This document shows positions 10,756 to 60,832 of a DNA stretch of 64,000 bases, piece after piece (position 1 is the first letter of the stretch; each line of letters opens with the position of its first letter). The position numbers and the translations under genes are program-made. Below the pieces are notes generated by a model, which had not been told where the DNA came from, made no database searches, and was given only the letters and a program-made list of their open reading frames with translations. Source of the DNA: Tahibacter amnicola (GTDB lineage Bacteria > Pseudomonadota > Gammaproteobacteria > Xanthomonadales > Rhodanobacteraceae); contig NZ_CP104694.1 in NCBI RefSeq assembly GCF_025398735.1, forward strand, positions 5,049,465 through 5,113,464. The letters run 5' to 3'.

Positions 10756-10782
10756 AAAGCCCAGGCCCCGTGCCTGGGCTTT
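10756..10782 (+). terminator. Hairpin terminator after kynU
   Basis: A perfect 11-bp stem (AAAGCCCAGGC pairing with GCCTGGGCTTT) with a 5-base loop CCCGT. It has no long U-tract, but the A/T ends of the stem and its position just behind the last gene of the catabolic cluster fit intrinsic termination. Confidence 0.75.
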
Positions 10783-10877
10783 GCCGTTCCTGCGGCCGGC
10801 CCTTTGTAACGAACTGGCACGAGTTGCCCACCCCATGTACGCCTAGTATTCGCCTGTCACCAGTACGCACGGCGGCC

Positions 10878-13073
10878 ATGAGCATCCACAGCAACCTGCG
10901 CGAAACCGTGATTTCCCTGTCAGACGGCTCGCAGCTGTTGATCACCCTGGACCGGCGTGAAGACTACTATGCGGCCATTCGCGACACGTCGCTGAGTTAC
11001 GCCTGGCTGCTACCGCCCGATGGTGGACCGCGCCGGGACCTGCTGGGGGTGCTTTCCAACAGTCTGGTGCCTGATCGGGCGAAGTCGCGCCATGCGCGCG
11101 AACTCGCCGCTGCGCAACGCCACGCCGCCCGGAATCGTAGCGGCCGCGAAAAACAGCGCTGCCTGGACAATGCCACCCGCCATGACTGGGAAGCCGGCCA
11201 GTACGCCATGTTCTCCCGCGGCATGCCCCATGCCGTCGCCGAGCTCGCGCCAGGCGTCCTGATCGCGGGATTTGACTGGGGTCGACCGAACGCCCGCTTT
11301 CGCTGCATCGACATCCTGCGGGAACAGGCGCTCTTCGACATTGACGGCCCTGAACTGGACCGCCTTTTCGGCAATATTCGCTACTTCCGGCGCAGCGCGG
11401 AGGAGCGGAGCTTGCTCGATTCCGTGCGTCAACAGCATCCGGAACTGAGAGCGCACCTACCGCCCAGTGGCGGGATGCTACCCAGCCGCACCTATCTCGT
11501 CACAGCCCACCGCGAATACGCGCTATTTCTTCTGGGCGGCCTGGGGCTGGTGCTGACCTGCTGGTCCGAGGGCCGTTTGAAACCGTTGCACGCGCTGCAG
11601 CTCGGGCACTACTACCGGCACCGCAGCGCGGTGTTCTGTCGCAATCAGCTGATCGCGCTCGGCTGCCGGCACACCGACCGGCACGCATCCCTGCACGTCA
11701 TTGATCCAGTGAGCGGCGAAACCCGGCATTCGATCGCGTTCGAACCCTCGTGGATACCGGATTCCGTCGTCGGTTGCGATGCAACCGGCATGATCGCCCT
11801 GTCAGGCTCCGGCGGCCGGGTGCGGCTGCTTGAACTGGATACATTGGCCACCCGCGACCTCGCCGCCTGCCGCGGGCTCGGCAAGGAATACTCCGCAGAC
11901 CTGGCGCTATCTCCCGATGGACGCTGGTTGCTGGCAACCGCCCACCTGGGTGTCATGACATTGACGGATCTGCGAGACCTGCGCTCCGTCGAGCTGCCGC
12001 TGCCCGAGGCAGAGCGGCGTGAACCGGCGGACTACTCGACATTTCCGACACCGCTGATTCGGATTGCTGGCTATTACCTCGATAGCACGCAGGTTGGTCA
12101 TCTGCACAGTGGCCACATTCACGTCCAATCCATCGATTCGCTGGCATTCCGGCCCGGCGCGCCAGACGTACCGCTCCCCCCACTCAAAGCGCCTCACGAT
12201 GCAGTCAACCACGCCCTGACACTCGGGTTTTCCGCGCTTGCCGACTGTTTACGCCGCTGGGTACGCCAGCCGTGCCAACTCAGTGTGAAAGCCGTTCACG
12301 ACGAAATTCCCGAACTGGGCACTACCCGCGTCGGCGGCTACCCGGACCTGCCCATCGGTACGCGCTGGCCGCGCCACAACGGCAGGCCGATGCAGTGCCT
12401 GGCCCAGATCGATCTTTCCGACCTGCCGGGCACACTCGCGGCCAGCGGGTTCCCTGCTACCGGCTTGCTGACCTTCTTTATCGCATTGGAACCCGATCTC
12501 CCGACGGCGCGGTTCCACGACCCGGACCAGTCCCCTGGCAACGTGCGCGTGCTCTACACCCCCGAGGGCACGCCCCTCGAGCGCATCCGCTCCACCTGGG
12601 ATCGAGGAACACCGGCGGCCGATATCGTGATGCCAAGCTGCGCCGCCCGCTTCGCCACACTGCCGATCGACCTTCCCGCCATCGACAGCGCCCGCGTACG
12701 GCAGGCCCGGCTCTCCCCCGGCGAGCGCGACCTGTATGCCGAACTGCTCGAACACCTCCACGCCGTCGCGCCCGGGCATCGCTATCACTTCATCGGCGGC
12801 AACGCACGTCTCATCCAGTGCGGCGATCCCGCCGACGAAGCCGAACGCATCGTTCGCGGTATCGACCGCTACCAGCTCCAGATCGACGATCCCGCGCTCG
12901 CCGCCGACGTTCTGCGCGCCAGCACGGACTGGGTGCAGCTGGCTCAATTTGACAGCTGCAGCGAAGCCGGCTGGGAATGGGGCGATGGCGGCGTCCTGCA
13001 TTGGATGATCCGCGAAGACGATCTGCGCCACGGTTGCTTCGATCGCGTCATCATGACGTTTGAATGCCATTGA
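10878..13073 (+). CDS. Propeller-like domain fused to DUF1963 (YwqG-like) (731 aa)
   Basis: No signal peptide, so probably cytoplasmic. The first 400 residues include repeated blade-like segments (TYLVTAHREYALFLLGGLG, LALSPDGRWLLATAHLGVM, LLELDTLATRDLA) reminiscent of a WD40/quinoprotein-type propeller. From about residue 470 to the end is a DUF1963/YwqG domain: TTRVGGYPDLPIGTRWPR, CLAQIDLSDLPG, LTFFIAL, and near the end a segment with EAGWEWGDGGVLHWMI. DUF1963 proteins have no settled function and usually stand alone at about 260-300 residues, so the long N-terminal addition is unusual. The ATG at 10878 was chosen; an upstream in-frame ATG at 10770 lies inside the terminator hairpin and is unlikely. 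Confidence 0.8.
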   Translation: MSIHSNLRETVISLSDGSQLLITLDRREDYYAAIRDTSLSYAWLLPPDGGPRRDLLGVLSNSLVPDRAKSRHARELAAAQRHAARNRSGREKQRCLDNATRHDWEAGQYAMFSRGMPHAVAELAPGVLIAGFDWGRPNARFRCIDILREQALFDIDGPELDRLFGNIRYFRRSAEERSLLDSVRQQHPELRAHLPPSGGMLPSRTYLVTAHREYALFLLGGLGLVLTCWSEGRLKPLHALQLGHYYRHRSAVFCRNQLIALGCRHTDRHASLHVIDPVSGETRHSIAFEPSWIPDSVVGCDATGMIALSGSGGRVRLLELDTLATRDLAACRGLGKEYSADLALSPDGRWLLATAHLGVMTLTDLRDLRSVELPLPEAERREPADYSTFPTPLIRIAGYYLDSTQVGHLHSGHIHVQSIDSLAFRPGAPDVPLPPLKAPHDAVNHALTLGFSALADCLRRWVRQPCQLSVKAVHDEIPELGTTRVGGYPDLPIGTRWPRHNGRPMQCLAQIDLSDLPGTLAASGFPATGLLTFFIALEPDLPTARFHDPDQSPGNVRVLYTPEGTPLERIRSTWDRGTPAADIVMPSCAARFATLPIDLPAIDSARVRQARLSPGERDLYAELLEHLHAVAPGHRYHFIGGNARLIQCGDPADEAERIVRGIDRYQLQIDDPALAADVLRASTDWVQLAQFDSCSEAGWEWGDGGVLHWMIREDDLRHGCFDRVIMTFECH

Positions 13074-36297: not shown

Positions 36298-37416
36298 ATG
36301 GCCCGACAAACCTCCGCACGTGTGTCCGTGCCCCCTGCCGTCCAACGCCCGCCTGCGGAAATCCTGCATGGCGACGAACTGGCGGAGCTGATCCAGAGTG
36401 ACCGCGATCCGAAACCGCCGGGTTGGCAGCTGAGTTTGCGCGCGGTGCGACGGTTCATCACCGGGGATAGCGCAACCGGGCGGCCGGCCAAGCTGATGGT
36501 TCCGCTCAGCCTGGTCGATCGCGCCATGGTGACCCTGGCCAGCGGGCGCGGACTCCTGCTCGTGGGCGAGCCGGGTACTGCCAAATCGCTGCTGAGCGAA
36601 TTGTTGGCAGCCGCGATATCCGGCACCAGCGTGCTGACCGTACAGGGCGGTGCCTCCACCACCGAGGACCAGATCAAGTACGGCTGGAACTACGCCCTGC
36701 TGCTCAACGAAGGCCCCAGTCCGCGCGCCCTGGTGCCGGGGCCGATTCTCACGGCAATGCGCGAAGGCCGCATCGCGCGCTTCGAGGAAATCACGCGCTG
36801 TCCCGCCGAAGTGCAGGACAGCCTGCTGTCGATTCTTTCCGAGCGGGTGCTGATGGTTCCCGAGCTGGCCGGCGACGAGGGTGTGATCTATGCCAACGCG
36901 GGCTTCAACCTGATCGCAACAGCCAACACCCGCGACCGCGGCGTGAATGAAATGAGCGCCGCACTGAAGCGGCGTTTTGCGTTTGAGACCGTGTTTCCGA
37001 TCAGCAGTCTCGACGATGAACTCGCCCTGGTCACGCGCGAGGCGCAACGGCTCCTGCGCCAGTCGGGCGTGAGCCTGACGCCGCCGGATGATGTGATCGA
37101 AGTGCTGGTATCCAGCTTCCGTGAACTGCGTGCCGGGCTGGACGCCGACGGCGGCGGCATGGAGCGGCTATCCACCGTGCTCTCGACCGCCGAAGCCGTC
37201 AGCGTGGCGCATGCGGTGGGCCTGCGCGGCTACTACCTGCGCGGCGACGCGGGCGACCCGGGTGACATCGTCGAGGCGCTGCTGGGCACCGCGGTGAAGG
37301 ACAACGCCGATGACCTGAAGAAGCTGCGACGCTACCTCGAACAGAAGGTGAGCAAGCGCGCCGGTACGGCGTGGCGCGCATTCTACGAGGCCCGCCACCG
37401 CCTGCCCTCGGCGTGA
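36298..37416 (+). CDS. yehL: MoxR-family AAA+ ATPase, YehL-like (372 aa)
   Basis: A single AAA+ domain of the MoxR group. Walker A is GEPGTAKS (residues 90-97), Walker B is in RIARFEEITR, sensor 1 in NLIATANTRDRG, and the arginine-finger region in LKRRFAFETVFP. MoxR ATPases act as remodelling chaperones, usually with a vWA protein encoded next to them; the partner here is the gene at 39701. Gene order matches E. coli yehL-yehM-yehP-yehQ, so the symbol is by analogy. The stop overlaps the GTG start of the next gene (37413-37416). In vivo function is not established. Confidence 0.9.
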   Translation: MARQTSARVSVPPAVQRPPAEILHGDELAELIQSDRDPKPPGWQLSLRAVRRFITGDSATGRPAKLMVPLSLVDRAMVTLASGRGLLLVGEPGTAKSLLSELLAAAISGTSVLTVQGGASTTEDQIKYGWNYALLLNEGPSPRALVPGPILTAMREGRIARFEEITRCPAEVQDSLLSILSERVLMVPELAGDEGVIYANAGFNLIATANTRDRGVNEMSAALKRRFAFETVFPISSLDDELALVTREAQRLLRQSGVSLTPPDDVIEVLVSSFRELRAGLDADGGGMERLSTVLSTAEAVSVAHAVGLRGYYLRGDAGDPGDIVEALLGTAVKDNADDLKKLRRYLEQKVSKRAGTAWRAFYEARHRLPSA

Positions 37417-39704
37417 ACGCCTCTGTCGAGATCATTGGCGTCCGCCACCACAGCCCCGCCTGCGCGCGGCTGGTGGCGGCGCGCCTGCGCGACTGGCGCC
37501 CGGACCGGGTGCTGATCGAAGGCCCCAGTGATTTCAACGACCGTATCGAGGAACTGCAGCGTCCGGGACACGTCGCGCCCGTCGCTATTTTCAGCTATTA
37601 CAGTGATAGCGAGCACACGCACCACTGCTATGCGCCCTTCAGCGACTACGCGCCGGAATGGATCGCCCTGCGCGTGGCCCCGGAAATCGGTGCGAAGGTT
37701 CAATTCATCGACCTGCCCTACTGGCACGAAGGCTCCCGCGGACGTGCGCAGGTGGTCGGCGATGCGGATGCCGCGCGGCGCCATCGGGCCCGCGAACGCG
37801 CGCTGGCGCAGCGCCTGGGCCTGGATGATGGCGATGCGCTGTGGGATCACCTGTTCGAGCAGGCGCTGCCCACCGACCAGCTCGCGGCAAGGCTGGCCAC
37901 CTACTTTGACGAGCTGCGCGCCGGTGAGCTCGGCGACGCCAGCGATCGCGCGCGCGAAACCTACATGGCGCACTGCATCGCGCATGCACGGGCCGAGGGC
38001 GGCCGCGTCCTGGTCGTCTGCGGCGGTTGGCATCGACCGGCGTTGCTGCGGCTGGCAGAGTCTGCCACGGCCGGTCCGGCGGATCTGCACCTGGCCGTAC
38101 CGCCGTCGATCCAGCGCCAGGGCAGTTTCCTGATCCCCTACAGTGATCGCCGCCTGGAAGCGCTCGGCGGCTACGGCGCCGGCGTGCAATCGCCGGCCTA
38201 TTACCGTTGGCTTTATGAACACGGCGCGGAAGGCGCGGCCGAGCGCGCGCTTCGCGCCGTCGTCAGCCGTCTGCGCGCCGGCAGGCAGAGCGTGTCGACG
38301 GCGGGCCTCGTGGCCGCCACGACGCGCATGCACCTGCTCGCCCACCTGCGCGGTCACGCACAACCGTTGCGCGTGGACGTCCTTGACGGATTGCTCGATG
38401 CCATGAGCAGCGAAGCGCTCAGCGCGCCACCGCCGTGGCAGTCGCGTGGCGTACTGTCGATGCAGGACGATCCCGTGCTACGCGAAGCGTTGCTGGCGCT
38501 GACCGGCGACACGGTCGGCCGTCTGGCACCCGGAACGCCGCTGCCGCCGCTGGTGGCTGATGTGAACGAACTGCTGGAACGCCATGCGCTGGCCGGTGAG
38601 GGCACCCTGCAGCTGGATCGCCAGCGCGACGCCCACCGCCCGCGCCTGGAAACCTTGTGGCGACTGCGCGTCCTGCGCATCCCCGGCTTTGACTACCGCG
38701 GCAGCAGCGCGCCGCAGGCGGCGCGGCAGCTGGGCGCCGACCAGTATCCTTGTGAGGAATGGCATCTGCGCCCCGGCGATACGCGACACGTCGCCCTGGT
38801 TGAAGCCGGTGCCTACGGCCCGACGTTGCAGGCGGCGGCGCTTCGGCGCCTGCGCGAGTCCGTCGCCGACGCCGCCCAGATCGATGACCTCGCCGAGCTG
38901 TACGTAACAGCGCTTCGCGCCGGCTACGACGACTTCGGCGCAAGCGTCCTGCCCGATCTGCACGCCGCCGTGCTCCACTGTACCGAACATGGCCCCCTGG
39001 GACGCGCAGGCCTGCGCCTCTTCGGGCTGCTGCGAAATCGGCTCGGTCCGTCCGACAGCGGCGTCCTGCTGCTGCCGGCGCTGGATGCCATCGTGAACCG
39101 TGTCCTTTGGTTACTGGAAGGTTTGTCCGCACCGAACCAGCCGGCCAGTACCGATGATGTCGTGGCGCTGCAGCTGGTCGATCGTGTGCTCGGTGACGAT
39201 GCCGCCGGCGGCATCGTCACCGGCAGCCTGCTCGATACACTCCATCGCCTGGGTGGCAACGCCGACCTTCCGCCCTCCGCGCGCGGCGCCACCTTCGGTG
39301 TGCTGTGGCGCCATGCGCCGGTCGACGCCGTTGAAACACCGCTACTGGCGGCCGTGAAAGCCTATGCACACGGCGAACCGCTGGGTGATTTCCTGTTCGG
39401 CCTGTTCGCACTCGCGCGCACCGAGTGCGCCCGCTCCAGCCAGCTGCTCGGTGTACTCGACGGCGTTGTCAGCGCAATGACCGAACAGGAGTTCCTGGTC
39501 GCCGCACCGGCATTGCGCCAGGCCTTTCACTACTTCCCGCCACGCGAGCGCGCGCAGATCGGCATGCAGGTCGCACAGCGGCATCGCGAGGGCGACCACG
39601 TCGACTCCGACTGGATGCGCCTGCCCTGCTCGATCGACGACCTGCGCCGCAGCGCGCGCCTGCTCGCCTCAATCGAACGCTTGCGAACACGGTTCGGCCT
39701 ATGA
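37413..39704 (+). CDS. yehM: DUF5682 family protein, YehM-like (763 aa)
   Basis: A large cytoplasmic protein. The N-terminal part reads VEIIGVRHHSPACARLV, then VLIEGPSDFN and later VLVVCGGWHRPALLRL. The early H and E plus the late G-x-x-H recall the ChaN/TraB/TIKI-type fold; this resemblance is my inference. The rest is alpha-helical with no nameable motif. E. coli YehM is of similar size (about 760 aa) in the same gene position. The start is a GTG at 37413 overlapping the previous stop, and the stop overlaps the ATG of the next gene, so the products are made in fixed proportion. It may be the effector or substrate-handling part of a MoxR/vWA machine. Confidence 0.88.
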   Translation: MNASVEIIGVRHHSPACARLVAARLRDWRPDRVLIEGPSDFNDRIEELQRPGHVAPVAIFSYYSDSEHTHHCYAPFSDYAPEWIALRVAPEIGAKVQFIDLPYWHEGSRGRAQVVGDADAARRHRARERALAQRLGLDDGDALWDHLFEQALPTDQLAARLATYFDELRAGELGDASDRARETYMAHCIAHARAEGGRVLVVCGGWHRPALLRLAESATAGPADLHLAVPPSIQRQGSFLIPYSDRRLEALGGYGAGVQSPAYYRWLYEHGAEGAAERALRAVVSRLRAGRQSVSTAGLVAATTRMHLLAHLRGHAQPLRVDVLDGLLDAMSSEALSAPPPWQSRGVLSMQDDPVLREALLALTGDTVGRLAPGTPLPPLVADVNELLERHALAGEGTLQLDRQRDAHRPRLETLWRLRVLRIPGFDYRGSSAPQAARQLGADQYPCEEWHLRPGDTRHVALVEAGAYGPTLQAAALRRLRESVADAAQIDDLAELYVTALRAGYDDFGASVLPDLHAAVLHCTEHGPLGRAGLRLFGLLRNRLGPSDSGVLLLPALDAIVNRVLWLLEGLSAPNQPASTDDVVALQLVDRVLGDDAAGGIVTGSLLDTLHRLGGNADLPPSARGATFGVLWRHAPVDAVETPLLAAVKAYAHGEPLGDFLFGLFALARTECARSSQLLGVLDGVVSAMTEQEFLVAAPALRQAFHYFPPRERAQIGMQVAQRHREGDHVDSDWMRLPCSIDDLRRSARLLASIERLRTRFGL

Positions 39705-40855
39705 CCACCATCACGCTCACACCGCTGGAACGCTGGCGTCTGCTGCTGGGCGAGAGCGCCGAGCGCACGCTCGGGGGCAGTGGCCTCAGCGTAACGGTGC
39801 AGTCCATGGACCGCGCGCTGGAGTGGCTGTATGGCCGCGATACACAGGGCGATGATCGGGACGTGATGAGCCGGGAGCGTTCCGCTGACCTTGGCGCCAG
39901 CGCGCTGGCTGTGCCCGAATGGATCAACCAGGTGCACAGCCTGTTTCCCCGGGAAACGATCGAGCGCCTGGAACGTGATGCGGTTGAGCACTACAAGATC
40001 AACGAACTCGTCACCAGTCCTGAAGTGCTCAAGCGCGTGCAACCCAGCCAGGCCCTGCTCGAAGCGGTGATGCGCACCAGGCACCTGATGAATCCCCAGG
40101 TGCTGGCAATGGCGCGCGACCTCGTTGCGGCCGTGGTTCGGCAACTGATCGAAGCCCTCGCGGTGGAGCTGCAACAGGCTTTCAGCGGCGTACGCAATCG
40201 CCGGCAGCACACCCGTTTTGCGAATGCACGGAACTTCGACGCCGCGGCGACCTTGCGCGCCAACCTCAAGCACTACGACATTCGCCAACGCCGGCTGGTG
40301 ATCGAACGGGCTCTCTTCAACCGGCGCAGCACGCGGCACCTGGAGCGCTGGCAGATCATCCTGGTGGTCGACCAGAGCGGCAGCATGCTGCCCAGCGTGA
40401 TCCACTCGGCGGTTACGGCGGCATGCCTGAGCGGACTGCCGGGCATCGACACGCACCTGCTCGCTTTCGATACGGAAGTGGTCGACCTGACCGACGAACG
40501 TAACGATCCAGTGGAGCTGCTGATGAAGGTGCAGCTGGGCGGCGGCACCGATATCCAGAAAGCCATGCGCTACGCCGCAGAACGCATCGATGCGCCGCGA
40601 CGCGCCATCGTGGTGCTGATCAGCGACTTCTACGAAGGCGCCTCGCCGCACCTGTTGCCGCGCATCGTGCGAGAACTGTGCGCGCAGGGGACGCGCGTAC
40701 TGGGCCTGGCTGCACTGGACCAGGAAGCCGTTCCCGCCTATGACCGCGAAATGGCAGCGACGCTGGTTGCCGCCGGTGCCGAGATCGGTGCCATGACGCC
40801 CGGGCAGCTGGCGCGCTGGCTGGCCGAGAAACTCAAAGGTGGACGGGCCGGCTGA
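39701..40855 (+). CDS. yehP: von Willebrand factor A domain protein, YehP-like (384 aa)
   Basis: An all-helical N-terminal half (about 1-200) precedes a vWA domain. The metal-ion-dependent adhesion site is complete: Asp224-x-Ser226-x-Ser228 in VVDQSGSML, Thr283 in GGGTDIQ and Asp309 in ISDFYEG. There is no signal peptide or membrane helix, so it is an intracellular MoxR partner rather than a pilus or adhesin protein. Its ATG overlaps the DUF5682 stop (39701-39704). E. coli YehP (about 378 aa) has the same size and position. A role presenting clients to the MoxR ATPase through the metal site is inference from other MoxR-vWA pairs. Confidence 0.93.
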   Translation: MTTITLTPLERWRLLLGESAERTLGGSGLSVTVQSMDRALEWLYGRDTQGDDRDVMSRERSADLGASALAVPEWINQVHSLFPRETIERLERDAVEHYKINELVTSPEVLKRVQPSQALLEAVMRTRHLMNPQVLAMARDLVAAVVRQLIEALAVELQQAFSGVRNRRQHTRFANARNFDAAATLRANLKHYDIRQRRLVIERALFNRRSTRHLERWQIILVVDQSGSMLPSVIHSAVTAACLSGLPGIDTHLLAFDTEVVDLTDERNDPVELLMKVQLGGGTDIQKAMRYAAERIDAPRRAIVVLISDFYEGASPHLLPRIVRELCAQGTRVLGLAALDQEAVPAYDREMAATLVAAGAEIGAMTPGQLARWLAEKLKGGRAG

Positions 40856-40856
40856 G

Positions 40857-43800
40857 ATGACTGCTGCCTTGCGCGCCGACTTGCTCAAGCTGACCCCCGA
40901 AGCCTTGGCGCAGCTGGCCAACCTCGGCCTGGTCAAGCGCGCGCAGCGCGAGCTGGCCGCCGGCTATGTGCCGCAATTGACGCATGCGGACGACGGCACC
41001 GTCTCGGCCATCTTTCCCGACCAGGTTCAGACCGCCTTTCCGCCCGGTGCCGGACTGAAGGAAGCACGCTGCAGTTGCGGCGCAACGCTTTGCCGTCACC
41101 GCATCGCGACGGTGCTGCACTATGCGGCCACGAGCGCCGATGAAGCACCGGCGGCAGCACCCGCCGAGGCGCGTTTTGCTGACCTCGACGAACAACAGAT
41201 CCGCGACCAGACAACCGCCTCCCTGTGGGCGGCCGTCGAGCGCGAGGCACGCAGCGGAATCCGCATCGACGTCGAACGCAGTCACAGCGCGGACCGGCGC
41301 AGCGTGGTCTACACCGCGCGTCTGCCGCACGCCACGGCGCGCTTCTACGCGGGTGCGGATCTGGCGTTCGCGCGCTGCGACTGCACCGCTCAGCAACGCT
41401 GCGAACATATCGCTCTGGGTGCGTTGGCCCTCAAGCGCGCCGGAGACATCGGCGACGTGCGCCTGACCATCGAGCTGGGCGATCGTCGCGACGGCGACCA
41501 CAAGGGTACTGCCTTCGCGTTCTGCGTGGAGCCCTACCGACATCTCGTCCGCGTACTGCTGGCGCAAGGGCTTGCGAACGGCGCTGCCGACAGTCCGCAC
41601 ACGGCGCAGGCGCTGAACGATGCGCTGCAGGCCAGCCGCAACATCGATGCCACCTGGCTGACCCTGTGCCTGGAAGCCATCGAGCAATGGCTCGATCACT
41701 ATCACCGGCGTAGCGCCCGGTTTTCCTATGGCGAGGGCGTCCAGTTGCTGCGCGAGCTGAGTCTGCGCGTGGCTGTCGCGCAGGCGGGTACGGCCGAGCT
41801 TTCGCCGCGCGCCGTGCTTGGCATGGGCGAAGCCATGGAAACGGCAATGGATCGCCTCGGCCTGATTTCGCTGGGTATGCGCCTGGAAGGCGATGGTGCC
41901 GACCGTTGCGCCACGCTTGCTGTCGTTGACTGTGACACACAAACCCTGCTCTGCCTGCAGAAAACCTGGCAACGCAAGACGGATGACGGCACCAGCGAGC
42001 TCGCGCAGCTGGACCAGCAGCGCGTCGCCGGCAGCCTGCGCCTGGGCAAGCTGGCACAGGGCACCCTGGTGACCACCACCGCCCGGCGTCGCGCCAACGG
42101 CGAACTCAAGCTCGGGCAAAGTTTCGCCGGCAAGGCTTCCGTCACGCCGCACACTGGCGACTGGTCGGCGTTGCGCCCGCCGCTCCTGATCGAATCGCAG
42201 AAGGATTTCCTGCGCCAGGAAACGCACGCGCCACCCCGCGATCTGCTGGCGCGCAGCGCCCTGCCCGGCTTCCACGTGTTGCGTCTGGCACGGGTGATGA
42301 CGCTGGGGTTTGATCCGGCGCAACAACGCCTGCACGCCATCGTACTGGACCCCGGCGGTTCGCCCTGGCATCTGGTACGCGACTACGCCGCCACCACACC
42401 GGGAGCCTTCGACGCCATTGCACGGGCACTGCGCGACGTCGCGGCGTCGCCCCGGCCTGCCTATGCCGCCGGCCCCGTACGGCGCCATGCAGAGGGCCTG
42501 ACGCTGGAGCCCTGGGCGCTGAGTGTGGGGCGCCTCGTCGTTCCTGACGCGACTGCACCGGATGGCACACTTGCCGAAGTTCCGCTTATCAATGTGCCGA
42601 CCGCTGGCCAGGATCCGCTTCGCCAGTTCCTCGCGGCAATCGATGAGTGCCTGTGCGAAGTGTTGCGCGATGGATTGCGCCGTCACAGCGGGGCCTCCGA
42701 ACGACTCGGTGAACTGCTCCGGCGCTGTCGCGACCTGGGTCTGGCCGGCACGGGTGAGCGCGGTGCCGGCGCACTGCTGCAACAGTTGTCGACGCACTGG
42801 CACGCCAGCCGCCAGGGTGAACGCGACAGCGTCTTCGCTGCGGCGACAGCCTTTGGGGATCTTGTTCAATGGACCGCGCTGGCACGCCACGCGGCCGCTT
42901 CCATCGATCTGGACGTTTCTGAGGGGAAAATGACCATGCAGCGCTTTGAGCTGGTAGAAGGAACCGCATCGAAGTTCTGGGAAATCAGCCGGGACGGCTG
43001 CACCTACACGGTGCGCTTCGGACGCATCGGCACCAACGGGCAGACGCAGAGCAAGACAGCGCCCACCGAAGCCAAGGCACAGGCTGAAGTGGACAAGTTG
43101 ATCAAAGAAAAAACCGGCAAAGGGTACTCATCCGTCGCGGTGGCTGCCGGCGCCCGGCTGGACGCTGTGGCGGTAAAACCGGCCAGGCCGGCCGCCGCTC
43201 CTGCTGCCCCCGCGCAAGCACCGGCCGAAGGCGCGCCCGCCACGCTCGCATCCACGACGGAACCAGTCGCCGATCCATCGCCACCGGCTCCCACCGGCGC
43301 GCCAGTGCACCCGGGATCGATTCCCATGCCCAGCGGGCAGTTCCAGTTCACGCCGGCGATGCGGAAGCTGCTGCCGGTGCAGCGCGGATTCGATGCGCCC
43401 GCCCAGCCACAAACGCCGCAGGACACACTGTGGGGCCGTCTGCCGAACTTCGTCGGCGCAGACCAACAGCGCGCGCACGCCGCTATCAGCACGGCCGGCT
43501 TGAGCCAGCTCGCCAAACAGTTTCCGATCGCGGAAATCTTCACGGCGAGCAGCCTGAGCACCCCCGATGCCGCACGCTGGGAAGCGGCGATGCAGCTGGC
43601 GACGGCACTGCAAAGCGCCATATACGGCGGCAACATCATGATGGCCCTGCTGGAACTGTGTGTCGTACTCCATGGTGCCGAATTCGCGGTGGGTACGTAT
43701 CTGGCAGCCATGGCGCCGGCACCCTCCGGCCGCCTGTACAGCTGGGTCGGGCCCGTACCGGGCGTCGAGATCCTCCATGAGGCGTTGGCACGTTGCACCG

Positions 43801-46721
43801 ACGAGGAATATGCCCGGGCGAAAGCGGCACTGCCCGCCCAGCCGCGCAGCCAGCGCGAGCAATTCGCGCGCGGCGTGGTATTTCATACCGAACCCGACCT
43901 CGTCGCCGATGCCATCGCCGTGGCGAACACCAGCGACGCCTATGCCTTCGAGGCAGTCACCGGTTTGTCACGCGCGCAGCTCACCCTTGATCAGGCCGCA
44001 TCCGTGGTCAAATCGACGCTCTGGCGCGACCACACCGGCGCACCGATCCTGGCAGTCAATCTTGCGCGTCTGCACGGGGCTGCGTCGCTGCCACTGGCGA
44101 TGCGACTGTATGAGCACCAGATGGATTCCGGCACGCGCGCACGGTTTGCCGACATCGTGCGTGCGTTTGACAGCCCTGACGCTTTCGCCGCGCTGCTCAT
44201 GCATTTCGAGCGAAAGGAGGCCCGTGTTCAGATCGACGAGTTTGCGAAGGCGTGGCCCTTCGCAGCCATGCAGGCAGCGGCCGCGCTGGTCGCGCGCAGT
44301 CGCGACAAGGACGTTGAAGCCTGGCTGACACGCATGCTCAGCGCACACGCCCCGCTGGTCGATGCCCTGAGCGCGTCGCTGGACGGTGCCGCGGCCAACG
44401 TGGTCACGCGACTGTGCAGCAAGCTGACCGACCTGGAAGATGCGCCGCTCGACGCGCTACCGGATGTGTTGCGCGACCCACCCTGGCTTAAACCCGTGCG
44501 CAAGGTCCAGCGACCCGAGCTGCCCGAGCGGCCGATGCCGGAACCGCGCATGCAATGGCCACCGGGCGTGCAGGCGAAGTGGCGGACCTATTTCGACCCC
44601 AACGACGCCGAGAGCCAGATGCGCGGGACATCCCTGTCCCGGGGCCAGATGGCGCTGAAACGGCTGGTCATTCCCGGTGCATTGTGGGAGCCGCTGCTTA
44701 CGGGCGAGATTCGCGATCTCACACCACACCTGGAAGCCATCGACGCGCTTTGGCAAAGCACGGAGTCCTACCGGCGCTATCGCGACGCCGGCGAGCTCCA
44801 GTCGCTGCCCGATGCGACGCGGCAACTGCTGTGGAACAACCTGCCGGGTTTCGAAACGACTAGCTGGGGCCTTGAGTATTCGGTCTGCGCGATCGTCGCT
44901 GTGGATGAACTGTCCGGCTTGCCGGGGCTTCTGCGCAGCCTTGAAGCACGACTGGATACGGGATTGATGGCGGCGCTGCCGGTGGGGGCCGCACCGATCG
45001 CGCCCTTTGCCGTGCTGGGCCTGTCACGCAAAAAGGCTCGTCCACACGCGATGGCCTGGTTGCGCGCACATACGACGCTCGCGTCCACTGCGCTCCTGGC
45101 GCAGGCAGCCAGCGGTCAGAAGAAGGCGGTCGAGCAGGCGGAGGCCGGCCTGCGCTGGCTTGCAGCGAACACAGACATGGCGCAGGTACGGGAAGGCGCC
45201 CGTCATTTCGGCGACGCCGGCGAAGCCCTGCTCGATGCCATCCTTTCCGTCGATCCGCTCTCGATTCTGCCGCAGAAGCCGCGCCCCCTGCCCGCCTTCT
45301 TCCTACCAGGCGGTCTGGCCCGTCCCCGCTTGCATGACGGCCGCGCGGTGCCCGTGCAGGCGCTGGGCGCGCTGGCCACCCTGCTCCAGGTTTCCGTGCT
45401 GGATGAAGCGCATGCCGGCATCGATATCGTCAAGCAGTTCTGCACGCCTGCCTCGCTGGACGATTTCGCCTGGGACCTGTTCCAGGCCTGGAACCAGAGT
45501 GGCGCACCGAGCAAGGAGAGCTGGGCCTTCACCGCTATCGGACACCTCGGCGGCGATGCCTGTGTACGCCAGCTCACGCCCTTGATCCGCGCCTGGCCCG
45601 GTGAATCTCAGCATGCGCGTGCCGTGACCGGGCTCGACATCCTCAGCCGCATCGGCAGCGACCTGGCGCTGATGAACCTCAATGGCATCGCACAGAAAGC
45701 CAAGTTCAAGGGCCTGCAGGACCGCGCCAAGGAGAAAATCCAGGCAATCGCGGAAGCACGCGAGCTCACGACCGAGGAGCTGGGCGATCGTCTCGTGCCC
45801 GACCTCGACCTCGATGCCGACGGAACGCTACGGCTGGATTTCGGTCCGCGGCAATTCACGGTCGGCTTCGACGAACAGCTGCGCCCCTTTGCCAAGGACG
45901 CCAGCGGCGCCCGGCTCAAGGATCTCCCCAAGCCACTCAAGACCGACGATGCTTCGCTCGCCCAGGCCGCCAGCGATCGCTGGAAGCTGCTCAAGAAGGA
46001 CATGAAGACCATTGCCAGCAACCAGATCCAGCGTCTGGAGCTGGCCATGTGCAGCAGCCGCACGTTCGAATTCGGCGTCTTCCAGCGCTTTTTCGTGCAG
46101 CATCCGTTGCAGCGCCACCTGACGCAGCGCCTGCTGTGGGGCGTGAAACGCGCCGATGGCAGCGTGCAGGGTTTTCGCGTTGCCGAGGACCTCAGCTTCG
46201 CCGACCGCGACGATCTCACGCTGTCCATCGCCGAAGACGCAATCATCGTGCTGCCGCACGTTCTTACGCTGTCAGCCGAGGAGCAGGCCGCATTCGGCCA
46301 GATCTTTGCCGACTACGAGATTCTGCAGCCTTTCATGCAACTGGGCCGCGAAGTGCTGGCGCTGGACGATGACGAAATTGATCGGAGCGAATCGCAACGA
46401 TTCAAGGGCAAGCGGGTCGCCATCGGCAGCGTCTACGGCCTGCAGCACCGCGGCTGGCGCAACGGCAGCCCGCAGGACAGCGGCTGGATCAGCTGGTTCG
46501 AAAAATCCCTGCCGGGCGGCCTGGAAGTGCAGATCGAGCTTGACCCCGGCACGATCGTCGGCGATATCAACTACAACCCGAAGCAGACGCTCGGCGCACT
46601 CACGCTGCGTGTTGCCAATACCTGGGACGAAAAGGGCAAGCGGCCGTTTTCCGCGCTCGATCCAGTTTCACGGTCGGAACTGTTGCGGGATATCGACCGA
46701 TTGACGGTGCTGGTGGATTGA
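40857..46721 (+). CDS. SWIM-SWIM-WGR-DUF4132 fusion protein, YehQ+YehI-like (1954 aa)
   Basis: The N-terminal part carries two SWIM-type zinc motifs: C72-x-C74-x4-C79-x-H81 (RCSCGATLCRH) and C174-x-C176-x5-C182-x-H184 (RCDCTAQQRCEH); this part matches the size of E. coli YehQ (SWIM protein). Residues about 692-765 form a WGR domain (MQRFELVEGTASKFWEIS, then VRFGRIGTNGQTQ), a nucleic-acid or protein-binding module known from PARPs. After a Pro/Ala-rich linker comes a long helical-repeat region, and from about 1650 a DUF4132 domain (GVYGLQHRGW-like: VYGLQHRGWRNGSPQDSG). E. coli YehI (MolR) has WGR plus DUF4132 in about 1210 residues. The ATG at 40857 follows the vWA stop by one base; a GTG at 40839 is possible. 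Confidence 0.9.
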   Translation: MTAALRADLLKLTPEALAQLANLGLVKRAQRELAAGYVPQLTHADDGTVSAIFPDQVQTAFPPGAGLKEARCSCGATLCRHRIATVLHYAATSADEAPAAAPAEARFADLDEQQIRDQTTASLWAAVEREARSGIRIDVERSHSADRRSVVYTARLPHATARFYAGADLAFARCDCTAQQRCEHIALGALALKRAGDIGDVRLTIELGDRRDGDHKGTAFAFCVEPYRHLVRVLLAQGLANGAADSPHTAQALNDALQASRNIDATWLTLCLEAIEQWLDHYHRRSARFSYGEGVQLLRELSLRVAVAQAGTAELSPRAVLGMGEAMETAMDRLGLISLGMRLEGDGADRCATLAVVDCDTQTLLCLQKTWQRKTDDGTSELAQLDQQRVAGSLRLGKLAQGTLVTTTARRRANGELKLGQSFAGKASVTPHTGDWSALRPPLLIESQKDFLRQETHAPPRDLLARSALPGFHVLRLARVMTLGFDPAQQRLHAIVLDPGGSPWHLVRDYAATTPGAFDAIARALRDVAASPRPAYAAGPVRRHAEGLTLEPWALSVGRLVVPDATAPDGTLAEVPLINVPTAGQDPLRQFLAAIDECLCEVLRDGLRRHSGASERLGELLRRCRDLGLAGTGERGAGALLQQLSTHWHASRQGERDSVFAAATAFGDLVQWTALARHAAASIDLDVSEGKMTMQRFELVEGTASKFWEISRDGCTYTVRFGRIGTNGQTQSKTAPTEAKAQAEVDKLIKEKTGKGYSSVAVAAGARLDAVAVKPARPAAAPAAPAQAPAEGAPATLASTTEPVADPSPPAPTGAPVHPGSIPMPSGQFQFTPAMRKLLPVQRGFDAPAQPQTPQDTLWGRLPNFVGADQQRAHAAISTAGLSQLAKQFPIAEIFTASSLSTPDAARWEAAMQLATALQSAIYGGNIMMALLELCVVLHGAEFAVGTYLAAMAPAPSGRLYSWVGPVPGVEILHEALARCTDEEYARAKAALPAQPRSQREQFARGVVFHTEPDLVADAIAVANTSDAYAFEAVTGLSRAQLTLDQAASVVKSTLWRDHTGAPILAVNLARLHGAASLPLAMRLYEHQMDSGTRARFADIVRAFDSPDAFAALLMHFERKEARVQIDEFAKAWPFAAMQAAAALVARSRDKDVEAWLTRMLSAHAPLVDALSASLDGAAANVVTRLCSKLTDLEDAPLDALPDVLRDPPWLKPVRKVQRPELPERPMPEPRMQWPPGVQAKWRTYFDPNDAESQMRGTSLSRGQMALKRLVIPGALWEPLLTGEIRDLTPHLEAIDALWQSTESYRRYRDAGELQSLPDATRQLLWNNLPGFETTSWGLEYSVCAIVAVDELSGLPGLLRSLEARLDTGLMAALPVGAAPIAPFAVLGLSRKKARPHAMAWLRAHTTLASTALLAQAASGQKKAVEQAEAGLRWLAANTDMAQVREGARHFGDAGEALLDAILSVDPLSILPQKPRPLPAFFLPGGLARPRLHDGRAVPVQALGALATLLQVSVLDEAHAGIDIVKQFCTPASLDDFAWDLFQAWNQSGAPSKESWAFTAIGHLGGDACVRQLTPLIRAWPGESQHARAVTGLDILSRIGSDLALMNLNGIAQKAKFKGLQDRAKEKIQAIAEARELTTEELGDRLVPDLDLDADGTLRLDFGPRQFTVGFDEQLRPFAKDASGARLKDLPKPLKTDDASLAQAASDRWKLLKKDMKTIASNQIQRLELAMCSSRTFEFGVFQRFFVQHPLQRHLTQRLLWGVKRADGSVQGFRVAEDLSFADRDDLTLSIAEDAIIVLPHVLTLSAEEQAAFGQIFADYEILQPFMQLGREVLALDDDEIDRSESQRFKGKRVAIGSVYGLQHRGWRNGSPQDSGWISWFEKSLPGGLEVQIELDPGTIVGDINYNPKQTLGALTLRVANTWDEKGKRPFSALDPVSRSELLRDIDRLTVLVD
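42921..42932 (+). promoter_or_regulatory. Candidate internal ribosome-binding site and start inside the SWIM-WGR gene
   Basis: GAGGGG followed after three A residues by an in-frame ATG at 42930, with a second ATG at 42936, exactly where the WGR domain begins (residue 692). Initiation here would give a separate 1263-residue WGR-DUF4132 protein, close to the length of E. coli YehI. Confidence 0.4.
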
Positions 46722-58468: not shown

Positions 58469-60832
58469 GTGAACAGGTATGCCTTTGGATGTCTCGCGCT
58501 TTGCGGTTTGCTATTGCTGCCAACCCTGCCGGCTCAAGCCAAGGGAGTCCCCGGTCTGGCGTGTTTGCGAACGGTGGACGAGACCTACGACAGCCTGGAT
58601 CGGCTCGCCCGCGACAACCCCACTCTGATTACCGGAATCAATCTGGGGCCGGGCTTCGAGCGGTCGCGCAACCCCTACCTGGGGTATGCCATGCGGGCGT
58701 GGAAACTGACGAACACGGCGACGGACGCAACGACGCCGGGTAAACCGGATATCGTCATTGTGGGTGGCCTGCGCCCCGACGCTCCCAGCCCCCCCGAATC
58801 CATTACGCGATTTGGTGAGTGGCTGGTCGGCCGCTACGGTGCTGACGCCGACGCCACCTGGCTGCTGGACAATTTCCGTTTTCACCTGATTCCCCTGGGA
58901 AATCCGGACGGCCGCAAACACCTCGACCTGGGCTTTTCCAGAGCCAAGAACACCAACTTCCTCGTCTCAGACGGCCAATGCCAATCACTGAACGTTGGTG
59001 TCAGCGTGGATCACAACTTTGCCTACACGTGGGACACACCCCGTTTTAGCGAGGTGTGCGACCACCTCTTCAAGGGACACAGCCCGACCTCCGAGCCAGA
59101 GACAAACCGGTTGTTCGGCTATGTCGTCGGTGTACCCAATATTTTTGGATATCAGGACGGAGTGCTTTCCGACCGGCGAAACGACAACCGATCGAATGCA
59201 GCACCGGCCGACTACAAAGGCCTGTTTATCGAGATGACCAGCTCCAACAGAACGACAACGTCGTGGCCGTGGAGCAATTCGACGGATCCAGCGCCCAATG
59301 GGAACGCATTGCGAACGCTGGCGCGCAGGGTGTCCTGGCATACCAGCGGATCGCCGGAACAGCTTTATGTCACATCGCCAGTGGAGTCGGAGACAGGTCA
59401 TCTATTTGATACCGTCTACGGCCACCTCGGTGCACCTTCACTGCGTTTGACGTGGAATGAAATCCTGGCACCGGATTGCGCTGTCTTTGAAAGAACGATC
59501 TGGCCAGAATCGCTGGCTACGCTACGCTACGCGGCGCGAACCGCCGCCGCTCCGTACCTGTTGGCGTCGGGACCAAACACGCTCTTCACCGAGGCGACAC
59601 CGGCTGTGGTGCCTTTGGGCACACCTGTGACGATCACCGCCACGATTGATGACAGCCACTTCAATCAGAGGCTCGGTGCAGAACCCTTTCAGCCGATTAG
59701 GGCGGCATTGGCCTATGTCGATGGAACGCCGTGGCACAGTACCGGCGCGCCCATCAGCCTTGTGCCAGCGGATGGCGTATTCGATTCGCCGAGCGAAGTC
59801 GTGAGGGGCACCATCAATACACTTGACCTGGCAGTGGGTGTTCACTCAATCACGGTGCAGGGAATCGACAGCTCCGGCCGTGCCGGCACGCCCCGGTCCA
59901 CGCAGTTCCGGATCACCATCCCGGGAAACCAGCCGCCCGCCGTGAATTTTCGGACGCAGCAGATTGGCACCAGCGTCAGTTTCGTGGATGAATCCAGCGA
60001 TACCGACGGCGTCGTAATGACGCGTCTCTGGGACTTCGGCGACGGCACGAAATCGGGCGCCACGCATCCATCGCATACCTATCCGCGTAGCGGCACCTAT
60101 CGGGTCACGCTGACCGCCTTTGACAACCGCAGCGCTAGCCGCACGATCGAACGCGATATCACCGTTGCCGACGTGACCCCTGCTTATCTGTTTCCCGGTA
60201 GCGTGTCGATTCCCGCTGTCGCTGCCGGTTCACACTACCTAGCAATGATTTACGTACCAGCCGGCGCGAGAGACCTGACGATTCGCACTACAGGTGGCAC
60301 TGGCGACGCCGATCTCCTGGTCCGCTACGGCGCCCCGCCTACACAACGAATGCACGACTGCGCTTCTGCAACTCTTGGCAGCACCGAGAGCTGCGCGGTC
60401 GCAGTTCCCTATGCCGGGAGCTACTACATTCTTGTCCCCGCCAACTCGGCCATCAGCGGCACTCAGCTCTCGACCAACTTCACCCTGGCTGCGCCCTTTG
60501 TGGAAAACAACAACTGGCAATCGATCGAAGACCTGCGGACCACCGAAAGCACGGTGTATCTGCCGAACTTCGCGGGCAAGGCCCCCGACAAGGTCTACGT
60601 GCAGGTCGACATCCAGCACACCTATGTAGGCGACCTTGCAATCGACCTGATTGCGCCCGACGGCCGCCAATACAGTCTTTGGCGGAATGAAGGCGGCGAT
60701 ACGGAGGACTTGCGCCGCTTGTTCACGGTCGATGCATCGGCGTCAGGCGGTATGGGTTTCTGGGCCCTCCGTGTGAAGGACAAGTACGCCGGCGACGTCG
60801 GTCGTTTGACATCGTGGTCGCTCCGGTTCTAG
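58469..60832 (+). CDS. Exported M14-like pseudo-carboxypeptidase with PKD, PPC and P domains (787 aa)
   Basis: The signal peptide is MNRYAFGCLALCGLLLLPTL then PAQA. Residues about 30-370 follow a zinc carboxypeptidase (M14) plan: LIPLGNPDGRKHLDLG, GVSVDHNFAYTW and KGHSPTSEPETNRLFG are in place. But the H-x-x-E zinc motif reads GGLRPDAP (Arg102, Ala105), and the third zinc His region reads LFIEMTSSN. Three zinc ligands thus look lost and the enzyme is probably inactive. Next come a PKD domain (about 495-570, WDFGDGTKSGATHPSHTY), a bacterial PPC domain (DADLLVRYG, GSYYILV) and a C-terminal proprotein-convertase P domain (HTYVGDLAIDLIAPDG, GFWALRVKDKYAGD). Start is GTG at 58469 with AGGAG 7 bases upstream. 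Confidence 0.82.
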   Translation: MNRYAFGCLALCGLLLLPTLPAQAKGVPGLACLRTVDETYDSLDRLARDNPTLITGINLGPGFERSRNPYLGYAMRAWKLTNTATDATTPGKPDIVIVGGLRPDAPSPPESITRFGEWLVGRYGADADATWLLDNFRFHLIPLGNPDGRKHLDLGFSRAKNTNFLVSDGQCQSLNVGVSVDHNFAYTWDTPRFSEVCDHLFKGHSPTSEPETNRLFGYVVGVPNIFGYQDGVLSDRRNDNRSNAAPADYKGLFIEMTSSNRTTTSWPWSNSTDPAPNGNALRTLARRVSWHTSGSPEQLYVTSPVESETGHLFDTVYGHLGAPSLRLTWNEILAPDCAVFERTIWPESLATLRYAARTAAAPYLLASGPNTLFTEATPAVVPLGTPVTITATIDDSHFNQRLGAEPFQPIRAALAYVDGTPWHSTGAPISLVPADGVFDSPSEVVRGTINTLDLAVGVHSITVQGIDSSGRAGTPRSTQFRITIPGNQPPAVNFRTQQIGTSVSFVDESSDTDGVVMTRLWDFGDGTKSGATHPSHTYPRSGTYRVTLTAFDNRSASRTIERDITVADVTPAYLFPGSVSIPAVAAGSHYLAMIYVPAGARDLTIRTTGGTGDADLLVRYGAPPTQRMHDCASATLGSTESCAVAVPYAGSYYILVPANSAISGTQLSTNFTLAAPFVENNNWQSIEDLRTTESTVYLPNFAGKAPDKVYVQVDIQHTYVGDLAIDLIAPDGRQYSLWRNEGGDTEDLRRLFTVDASASGGMGFWALRVKDKYAGDVGRLTSWSLRF

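Follow-up and report, generated by a model that had tools for sequence, protein, structure and literature searches.

Among the systems described so far, RavA–ViaA and CoxD–CoxE consist of a MoxR-type AAA+ ATPase and a von Willebrand A (vWA) partner, as in the operon analysed here. To our knowledge, neither of these pairs includes a DUF5682, SWIM or HEAT-like subunit. MoxR–vWA pairs have been assigned chaperone-like roles in the available parts of two sources (PMC3893208, PMC7159879), the first of which lists YehL as one of seven MoxR subfamilies. It has also been proposed that ternary systems, in which MoxR and vWA proteins are likewise accompanied by further subunits (VMAP, iSTAND, beta-propeller), act as conflict systems; SWIM, WGR, DUF4132 and Tiki are not mentioned in the available sections of that paper (PMC7159879).

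The counterpart of the locus in E. coli K-12 is the yehF-yehH-yehI-yehK-yehL-yehM-yehP-yehQ region, which holds homologous parts in the same L-M-P-Q order. In E. coli, YehQ and YehI are separate proteins, the WGR domain belongs to YehF and yehH is a pseudogene, whereas YehQ and YehI are fused in the operon presented below. No paper on the function of the YehL subfamily was met in a partial search of the literature; as far as that search shows, the genes have been named but not characterised, and the fusion is new.

Operon layout and protein components

The window analysed, a stretch of 64,000 nucleotides from Tahibacter amnicola, contains an intact operon of four genes running in one direction (+ strand), a relative of E. 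coli yehI-yehLMPQ in which YehQ and YehI are fused. The open reading frames (372, 763, 384 and 1954 aa) have no internal stops. They are joined by a GTGA overlap (37413-37416), an ATGA overlap (39701-39704) and a one-base gap at 40856, between the TGA ending at 40855 and the ATG beginning at 40857. The MoxR, DUF5682, CoxE-type vWA and SWIM genes are adjacent and follow the L-M-P-Q order of the YehI-YehLMPQ gene set, with the C-terminal half of the SWIM protein supplying the DUF4132 (YehI) component.

The first gene (36298..37416, + strand) encodes a MoxR-type AAA+ ATPase of 372 aa (Pfam AAA_5, E 7.8e-39), sharing 61% identity with E. coli YehL over 356 columns (BLASTP). It displays a Walker A motif (GEPGTAKS, residues 90-97), a Walker B-like FEEI, the sensor N210 and Arg225/226, and none of these Walker, sensor and arginine positions varies in the 98 rows of the YehL alignment. 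Judged by its sequence, the protein is a member of the YehL subfamily with intact AAA+ motifs. The third gene (39701..40855, + strand) encodes a CoxE-type vWA protein of 384 aa (Pfam VWA_CoxE, E 2.7e-52), a homologue of E. coli YehP (56% identity, BLASTP). Its MIDAS comprises D224-S226-S228, T283 and D309, all invariant in 89/89 YehP rows except the threonine (88/89). PDB searches by sequence or fold returned no useful match for the vWA protein or for YehQ.

The fourth gene (40857..46721, + strand) encodes a 1954-aa fusion of YehQ-type (SWIM), WGR and YehI-type (DUF4132) parts, recognized by BLASTP to YehQ and YehI. The YehQ-like part (residues 4-608; 40866..42680, + strand) matches E. coli YehQ with 30% identity (E 1e-57). 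The C-x-C-xn-C-x-H motif occurs twice in the protein, from residues 72 and 174, giving SWIM motif 1 (residues 72-81; 41070..41099, + strand) and, by direct motif count, the SWIM-like motif 2 (residues 174-184; 41376..41408, + strand); the Pfam SWIM match lies below the cut-off (17.5 versus 19.6 bits). C72, C74, C79 and H81 of the first motif are kept in all 75 rows with a letter there. Two motifs were counted directly in only 21 of the 73 YehQ rows, the other 52 having one, so the second motif is optional.

The WGR domain (residues 698-759; 42948..43133, + strand; Pfam E 4.5e-16) matches PDB 2ra8 in sequence (E 1.2e-6) and resembles E. coli YehF (BLASTP E 4e-7). The same stretch of the window (42966-43205) matches the NCBIfam LIC_11051 'fibronectin-binding' model at positions 12-91 (E 1.3e-10; 40 bits, far below the cut-off), which suggests that the LIC_11051 family also starts with a WGR domain. 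The YehI-like part (residues 1058-1943; 44028..46685, + strand) shares 30% identity with E. coli YehI (BLASTP E 6e-99) and includes the DUF4132 domain (residues 1684-1867; 45906..46457, + strand; Pfam E 2.1e-48). The AF2 model of residues 1041-1954 (pLDDT 90.0) consists of a helical solenoid followed by the DUF4132 α/β region, and the Foldseek matches listed for this half are mostly HEAT/ARM proteins, albeit weak (best E 5e-4, poor TM). The YehI part is thus predicted to be a HEAT/ARM-like solenoid scaffold plus DUF4132.

The putative fusion point is an internal methionine, Met692 (MTMQRF; 42930..42932, + strand), where a free WGR-YehI gene probably once began. Codon-position GC shows no break at this point and the coding signal is even throughout the long frame, which makes a sequencing slip or a frame artefact an unlikely source of the fusion.

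These results bear out most of the preliminary description of the locus. The four genes, the two overlaps and the one-base gap that it listed are exact at the nucleotide level. The intact Walker motifs of the MoxR ATPase, the DUF5682 product, the complete MIDAS of the vWA protein, and the two SWIM fingers, WGR and DUF4132 of the largest product were all recovered, the SWIM fingers by motif, with Pfam below its cut-off. The claimed relation to YehL, YehM, YehP, YehQ and YehI is reflected in BLASTP matches to each of them, and K-12 indeed carries yehL, yehM, yehP and yehQ in this order with a separate yehI. The description of E. coli yehI as a WGR-DUF4132 gene has to be corrected: YehI carries DUF4132 and gives no WGR match at E 0.01, and the WGR domain lies in a separate gene, yehF. 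Three features described below are absent from the preliminary description: a Tiki-like signature in YehM, another copy of the set that lies outside the window, and an architecture with DUF5691.

Conservation of the gene set and spread of the fusion

A scan of GTDB contigs with the YehL alignment yielded at least 569 confirmed relatives among 592 pattern matches. The best 80 were kept, and a phylum sample of 398 genomes added 14 loci, found in 13 genomes besides the window's own, for a total of 94; these counts give no estimate of prevalence, because the best 80 of at least 569 were chosen by YehL similarity. With loci cut by a contig edge counted as misses, DUF5682 is present in all 94 loci, vWA in 88, YehI in 82, YehQ in 79 and all five parts in 76, the organisms of the latter being titled actinomycetes, proteobacteria, myxobacteria and Thermoanaerobaculia. 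The commonest orders are YehI-L-M-P-Q (20 of 80 loci) and WGR-YehI-L-M-P-Q (18 of 80). WGR matches are found in 41 of the 94 loci only, and YehI copies (frames with a match of at least 550 residues) number one in 45 loci, two in 22 and three in 8. In two loci scored as lacking YehQ (L028 and L029), the vWA gene is followed by one for a SWIM-motif protein. Split frames were seen for YehM, YehP and YehQ in L082, YehP in L040, YehI in L062 and YehM in L063, which are possibly decaying or poorly assembled copies.

The genes are close to universal in E. coli, with yehM in 5284 of 5426 genomes (5166 at ≥80% coverage) and yehI in 5283 of 5426 (5177 at ≥80% coverage). DUF5682 was detected in 14 of the 398 phylum-sample genomes, the window's own included. 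Matches to the 1954-aa protein occur in 4 of 185 class genomes; one is the window's own and the other three match only the WGR or DUF4132 parts.

The fused YehQ-YehI frame is carried by none of the 94 loci. YehQ- and YehI-type matches are present in all eight genomes of the genus, three of which are also among the 94 loci (G401 = L036, G403 = L087, G154 = L031), and form one match in one frame in the window genome only. In a FastTree phylogeny that used six of the eight fetched genus loci (L119 and L124 being left out by the hit/length rule), the fused YehI half groups with Tahibacter soli copies (support 81; only 11 at the next node), on a long branch within a clade (support 99) whose other members are unfused. 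Taken together, these counts and the tree make the fusion look like a local event, a new variant of an old and conserved gene set. The conserved neighbourhood that had been expected is evident in the 76 loci with all five parts, and neither of the outcomes that the preliminary description named as refuting it was obtained. The earlier argument that the fusion shows YehQ and YehI working together stands in substance: the two belong to one system, for which the strong evidence is co-occurrence in 76 of 94 loci rather than a fusion confined to one genome.

In the window genome, a single contig of 6.46 Mb, DUF5682 and DUF4132 are each encoded by one further gene. Both of these genes are part of an unfused set in one direction, DUF4132-YehL-YehM-YehP-YehQ (copy B; G000:C1:5038875-5049075, equal to L004:6876-17076), that ends 390 bp upstream of window base 1. 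The two copies share 54% identity in YehL, 30% in YehM and 46% in YehP. The DUF4132 gene comes first in copy B, which has no WGR match, whereas WGR lies inside the fusion in the window copy. The YehQ of copy B is divergent: it aligns with E. coli YehQ over a short stretch (E 1e-4), has one SWIM motif and gives no Pfam match. Since the window YehL is closer to that of E. coli (61%) than to copy B (54%), the two sets are either old paralogues or separate arrivals.

A second architecture was found in Deinococcus taeanensis, with the order SWIM-DUF5691-MoxR-DUF5682-vWA (L184:6603-14649). This plan is common to the six of the 14 phylum-sample loci without YehI and YehQ matches (L022-L027), all of which have, upstream of the MoxR gene, a SWIM protein and a DUF5691 protein above the Pfam cut-off. 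HEAT matches were obtained for four of these six DUF5691 proteins, all weak and none reaching the cut-off (best E 1.9e-4). What the two architectures have in common is the ring motor, the vWA adaptor, DUF5682, the SWIM protein and, given weak HEAT matches for both DUF5691 and YehI, probably a HEAT-like scaffold. The DUF5691 version was not met in the partial literature search and appears to be new.

The N-terminal domain of YehM

The second gene (37413..39704, + strand) encodes the YehM homologue, a DUF5682 protein of 763 aa (Pfam E 5.8e-101) with 36% identity to E. coli YehM (BLASTP). The AF2 model of YehM (pLDDT 88.9) comprises an N-terminal α/β domain and a long, mostly helical tail. In the first 215 residues, the succession GVRHHSP ... 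LIEGP ... RExxMA ... GGxH resembles the TraB/Tiki pattern, the YehM N-terminus carrying GxxH ... E ... MAxxI ... GGxH as does the Tiki/TraB/PrgY/GumN/ChaN/Ere superfamily. The YehM domain differs from that superfamily in that a long helical tail follows it and an AAA+ motor is encoded alongside. From profile comparisons, Foldseek and conservation, a putative Tiki/TraB/ChaN-like domain can be placed at about residues 1-215 (37413..38057, + strand, inferred limits).

Profile comparison with hhalign gave a score of 35.5 between the DUF5682 N-terminus and TraB (13 distinct genes), against 21.3 for the best of 50 column shuffles, and 29.1 with ChaN, where the best of 50 shuffles also reached 21.3. 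The score with GumN (25.0) was below the best of 50 shuffles (26.5), and the vWA, AAA and Ere alignments scored at most 20.9. Accepted superfamily pairs measured in the same way gave 39.3 (TraB-ChaN) and 33.7 (GumN-ChaN), so that DUF5682-TraB falls between them; the hhalign probabilities are 40% with TraB and 12% with ChaN. The scored cores are short and do not coincide: that of TraB covers 36 columns at one end of the domain, around the N-terminal GxxH, and that of ChaN 33 columns at the other end, around the C-terminal MAxxI...GGxH. Long alignments to the superfamily come only from forced realignment, in which both zones are in register for TraB, GumN and ChaN, or from a smaller earlier alignment, which scored 25.3 with TraB over 198 columns versus a maximum of 15.7 in 20 shuffles, of which one had no result, and 5.2 with GumN. 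Ere (PF05139) did not match DUF5682, but it did not match TraB either, so this comparison lacks power at such a distance.

Searches with single proteins and structures gave a mixed picture. When 40 DUF5682 members were compared with Pfam at E 10, the TraB model did not appear among their matches, and the ChaN model was weakly matched by two of the 40 (best E 0.14). In a Foldseek search of BFVD, the top match of the YehM model was a TraB family protein (prob 1.00, E 0.018, target-normalised TM 0.43). The Foldseek search of PDB gave no match at E 0.001; the 50 rows listed out of 782 were mostly solenoids and included no Tiki protein, and a PDB profile search with DUF5682 found no Tiki protein.

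In an alignment that included E. coli, actinomycetes, Deinococcus and others, R11, H12, E36, E82 and D100 are invariant in 92/92 rows, and E149, R169, R181, E182, M185, G204 and H207 in 93/93. Tiki enzymes have common 2His/2Glu catalytic residues, according to the available part of one source (PMC6254334), and the invariance of His and Glu in DUF5682 is the pattern expected of an active site. The candidate catalytic residues, chosen by conservation, are H12 (37446-37448), E36 (37518-37520), E182 (37956-37958) and H207 (38031-38033; all + strand), the glutamates E36 and E182 being putative assignments. The DUF5682 N-terminus is therefore likely, though not proven, to be related to the Tiki/TraB superfamily, and YehM may share the Tiki fold and act as a hydrolase. 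The name DUF5682 is absent from the literature searched, and the Tiki-like assignment was not met in that partial search and appears to be new.

Proposed function and alternative readings

The reading that we favour, to which we give a little less than an even chance, is that the gene set encodes a complete, conserved and functionally undescribed machine, in which ATP-driven remodelling feeds a Tiki-like hydrolase and which is possibly induced by damage. The YehL ring would hydrolyse ATP, and the YehP adaptor would use its MIDAS-bound metal to capture an acidic residue of a partner. Through YehP, YehL could then remodel or pull a target held on the HEAT-like scaffold of the YehI part, which the WGR and SWIM elements would bring to nucleic acid or to a nucleic-acid-bound complex. 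The remodelled substrate would be presented to the Tiki/TraB-like domain of YehM, or would activate it, leading to cleavage, with DNA damage or general stress as the likely setting. The preliminary description had seen a nucleic-acid-linked, ATP-dependent stress or defence machine; the conserved system with an intact ATPase and SWIM motifs holds, and the defence part is not supported.

Published data offer a suggestive link to damage. In D. radiodurans, DRA0166 (DUF4132) and DR2173 (WGR) belong to the DdrO regulon and rise with mitomycin C in an IrrE-dependent manner (PMC8533742); whether these count for the window operon depends on a putative orthology of DRA0166 and its YehI part. In E. coli, molR lies directly before yehI (PMC10652928, in part) and appears on lists of LexA or SOS genes in the sections available of three papers (PMC3978071, PMC11039860, PMC4576408). 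Control of the system through SOS boxes was considered and set aside, with four SOS-type box kinds showing no enrichment upstream of the 94 loci: CTGTN8ACAG was observed 0 times (0.66 expected) and GAACN4GTTC twice (2.04 expected). The window, copy B and E. coli were also searched for CTGTN8ACAG, again with no support for SOS control, and a LexA-like site with seven mismatches in E. coli (L001:6448), 27 bases before yehF, is too weak to count. The yeh region is missing from a genome-reduced E. coli (PMC10652928, in part), and the system is thus dispensable in the laboratory.

Defence was examined through PADLOC and Pfam scans of the operon, the other window ORFs and the flanks of the loci, after which a defence island was rejected as the leading reading. 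Among the four operon proteins, PADLOC reported only a weak WGR_XIII match (E 2.3e-4, 17.8 bits, residues 710-785), and neither PADLOC nor Pfam listed a VMAP or iSTAND family. A Pfam scan of 20 further window ORFs, some of which may not be genes, left 10 without a match; the 10 with matches include no defence family. Two of the window's other ORFs are a 767-aa frame whose C-terminal third is DUF1963 (10770-13073; E 1.6e-34) and a zinc carboxypeptidase (M14) with PKD, PPC and P-proprotein domains (58469-60832). In the flanks alone, where 139 of 292 ORFs from 73 of the 80 loci were scanned, no PADLOC family among the best 25 of 50 listed occurs in more than two of the 139 proteins: mad3 and mad8 in two each, mad6 and mad2 in one each, and others, such as PD-T4-6, in single proteins. 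A location in defence islands, which the preliminary description asked about, has no support in the window ORFs scanned or, among the families listed, in the flanks. With the bpMoxR model, the MoxR proteins of the window (18.6 bits) and E. coli (18.4 bits) stay under the cut-off of 27.

As regards mobile elements, no relative of the MoxR protein was found in 113 pattern-matched IMG/VR stretches, and 50,697 phage records gave one partial match, in an unverified, unannotated 14-kb record; a phage origin was rejected on these grounds. DUF5682 matches occur in 36 of 72,556 plasmid records, some of them chromosome-sized, and the Yeh set is present on rhizobial conjugative plasmids. On the mobilizable plasmid pl1 of Iodobacter fluviatilis (L183), it adjoins a type I restriction-modification system and transposases.

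The same data can be read in other ways. In an anti-invader conflict system, the MoxR-vWA pair would be the switch, YehM the effector hydrolase and SWIM/WGR the nucleic-acid sensors. The conflict role proposed for MoxR-vWA ternary systems (PMC7159879, in part), the patchy spread of DUF5682 in the phylum sample (14/398) and of the 1954-aa protein among class genomes (4/185), the rhizobial conjugative plasmids, the Iodobacter mobilizable plasmid with its type I restriction system and the MoxR of Deinococcus taeanensis, which just passes the bpMoxR cut-off (27.8 versus 27 bits), are all in keeping with it. Yet yehM is near-core in E. coli (5284/5426), YehQ- and YehI-type matches are present in 8/8 genus genomes, ordinary enzymes surround the window operon, no listed PADLOC family exceeds two of 139 flanking proteins and the window bpMoxR match is under cut-off, which makes this reading improbable. 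A chaperone for metal or cofactor insertion is unlikely as well. Here the MoxR-vWA pair would mature a metalloenzyme in the manner of CoxD-CoxE or the chelatases, WGR-DUF4132 (MolR) would tie the system to molybdate and YehM would bind haem or metal like ChaN, a haem-binding member of the Tiki superfamily by its Pfam title. YehP does belong to the VWA_CoxE family, CO dehydrogenase depends on CoxD for its CuSMoO2 cluster (PMC3893208) and the name MolR goes with a suggested molybdopterin link (PMC8533742, in part). But no molybdenum or haem enzyme is present among the 20 window ORFs scanned or the best 25 of 120 Pfam families listed for the 139 flanking proteins, moeA and moeB were reported as not differentially expressed in the same study (PMC8533742), and DUF5682 retains the full His/Glu set.

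A further reading bears on YehM itself, whose Tiki resemblance would be a chance motif match; the protein would then serve as a structural adaptor, in a MoxR-vWA system that acts as an ordinary chaperone for YehI or YehQ. Low hhalign probabilities, a GumN score not above shuffles and the lack of a PDB match would fit. We hold it to be quite improbable: the TraB match falls in the zone of the N-terminal GxxH and the ChaN match in that of the C-terminal MAxxI...GGxH, either score exceeds those of its 50 shuffles, both zones are in register for TraB, GumN and ChaN under forced realignment and the motif residues are invariant. The fusion, for its part, could well be a neutral accident of one lineage and uninformative on function, a view that we incline slightly against. 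Its presence in 0/94 loci and 1/8 genus genomes and the internal MTMQRF, which resembles a former start, agree with such an accident, but the frame of 1954 aa is unbroken and has a normal coding signal, and at other loci the counterparts of its two halves are kept as neighbours.

Returning to the favoured reading of a remodelling machine that feeds a hydrolase, its fullest form is tentative and on balance somewhat unlikely. YehM would found a group of Tiki-superfamily hydrolases governed by a MoxR ring and a vWA adaptor, with a HEAT-like scaffold that bears WGR and SWIM. This ATP-driven machine, of an undescribed kind, would probably cleave proteins or peptides where nucleic-acid complexes are damaged or stalled, and would exist in DUF4132 and DUF5691 versions in E. 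coli, actinomycetes and Deinococcus. Should YehM have a Tiki-like active site, it would be the first testable enzyme of the set, and the question can be addressed in K-12, because the genes are present in 97% of the E. coli genomes examined.
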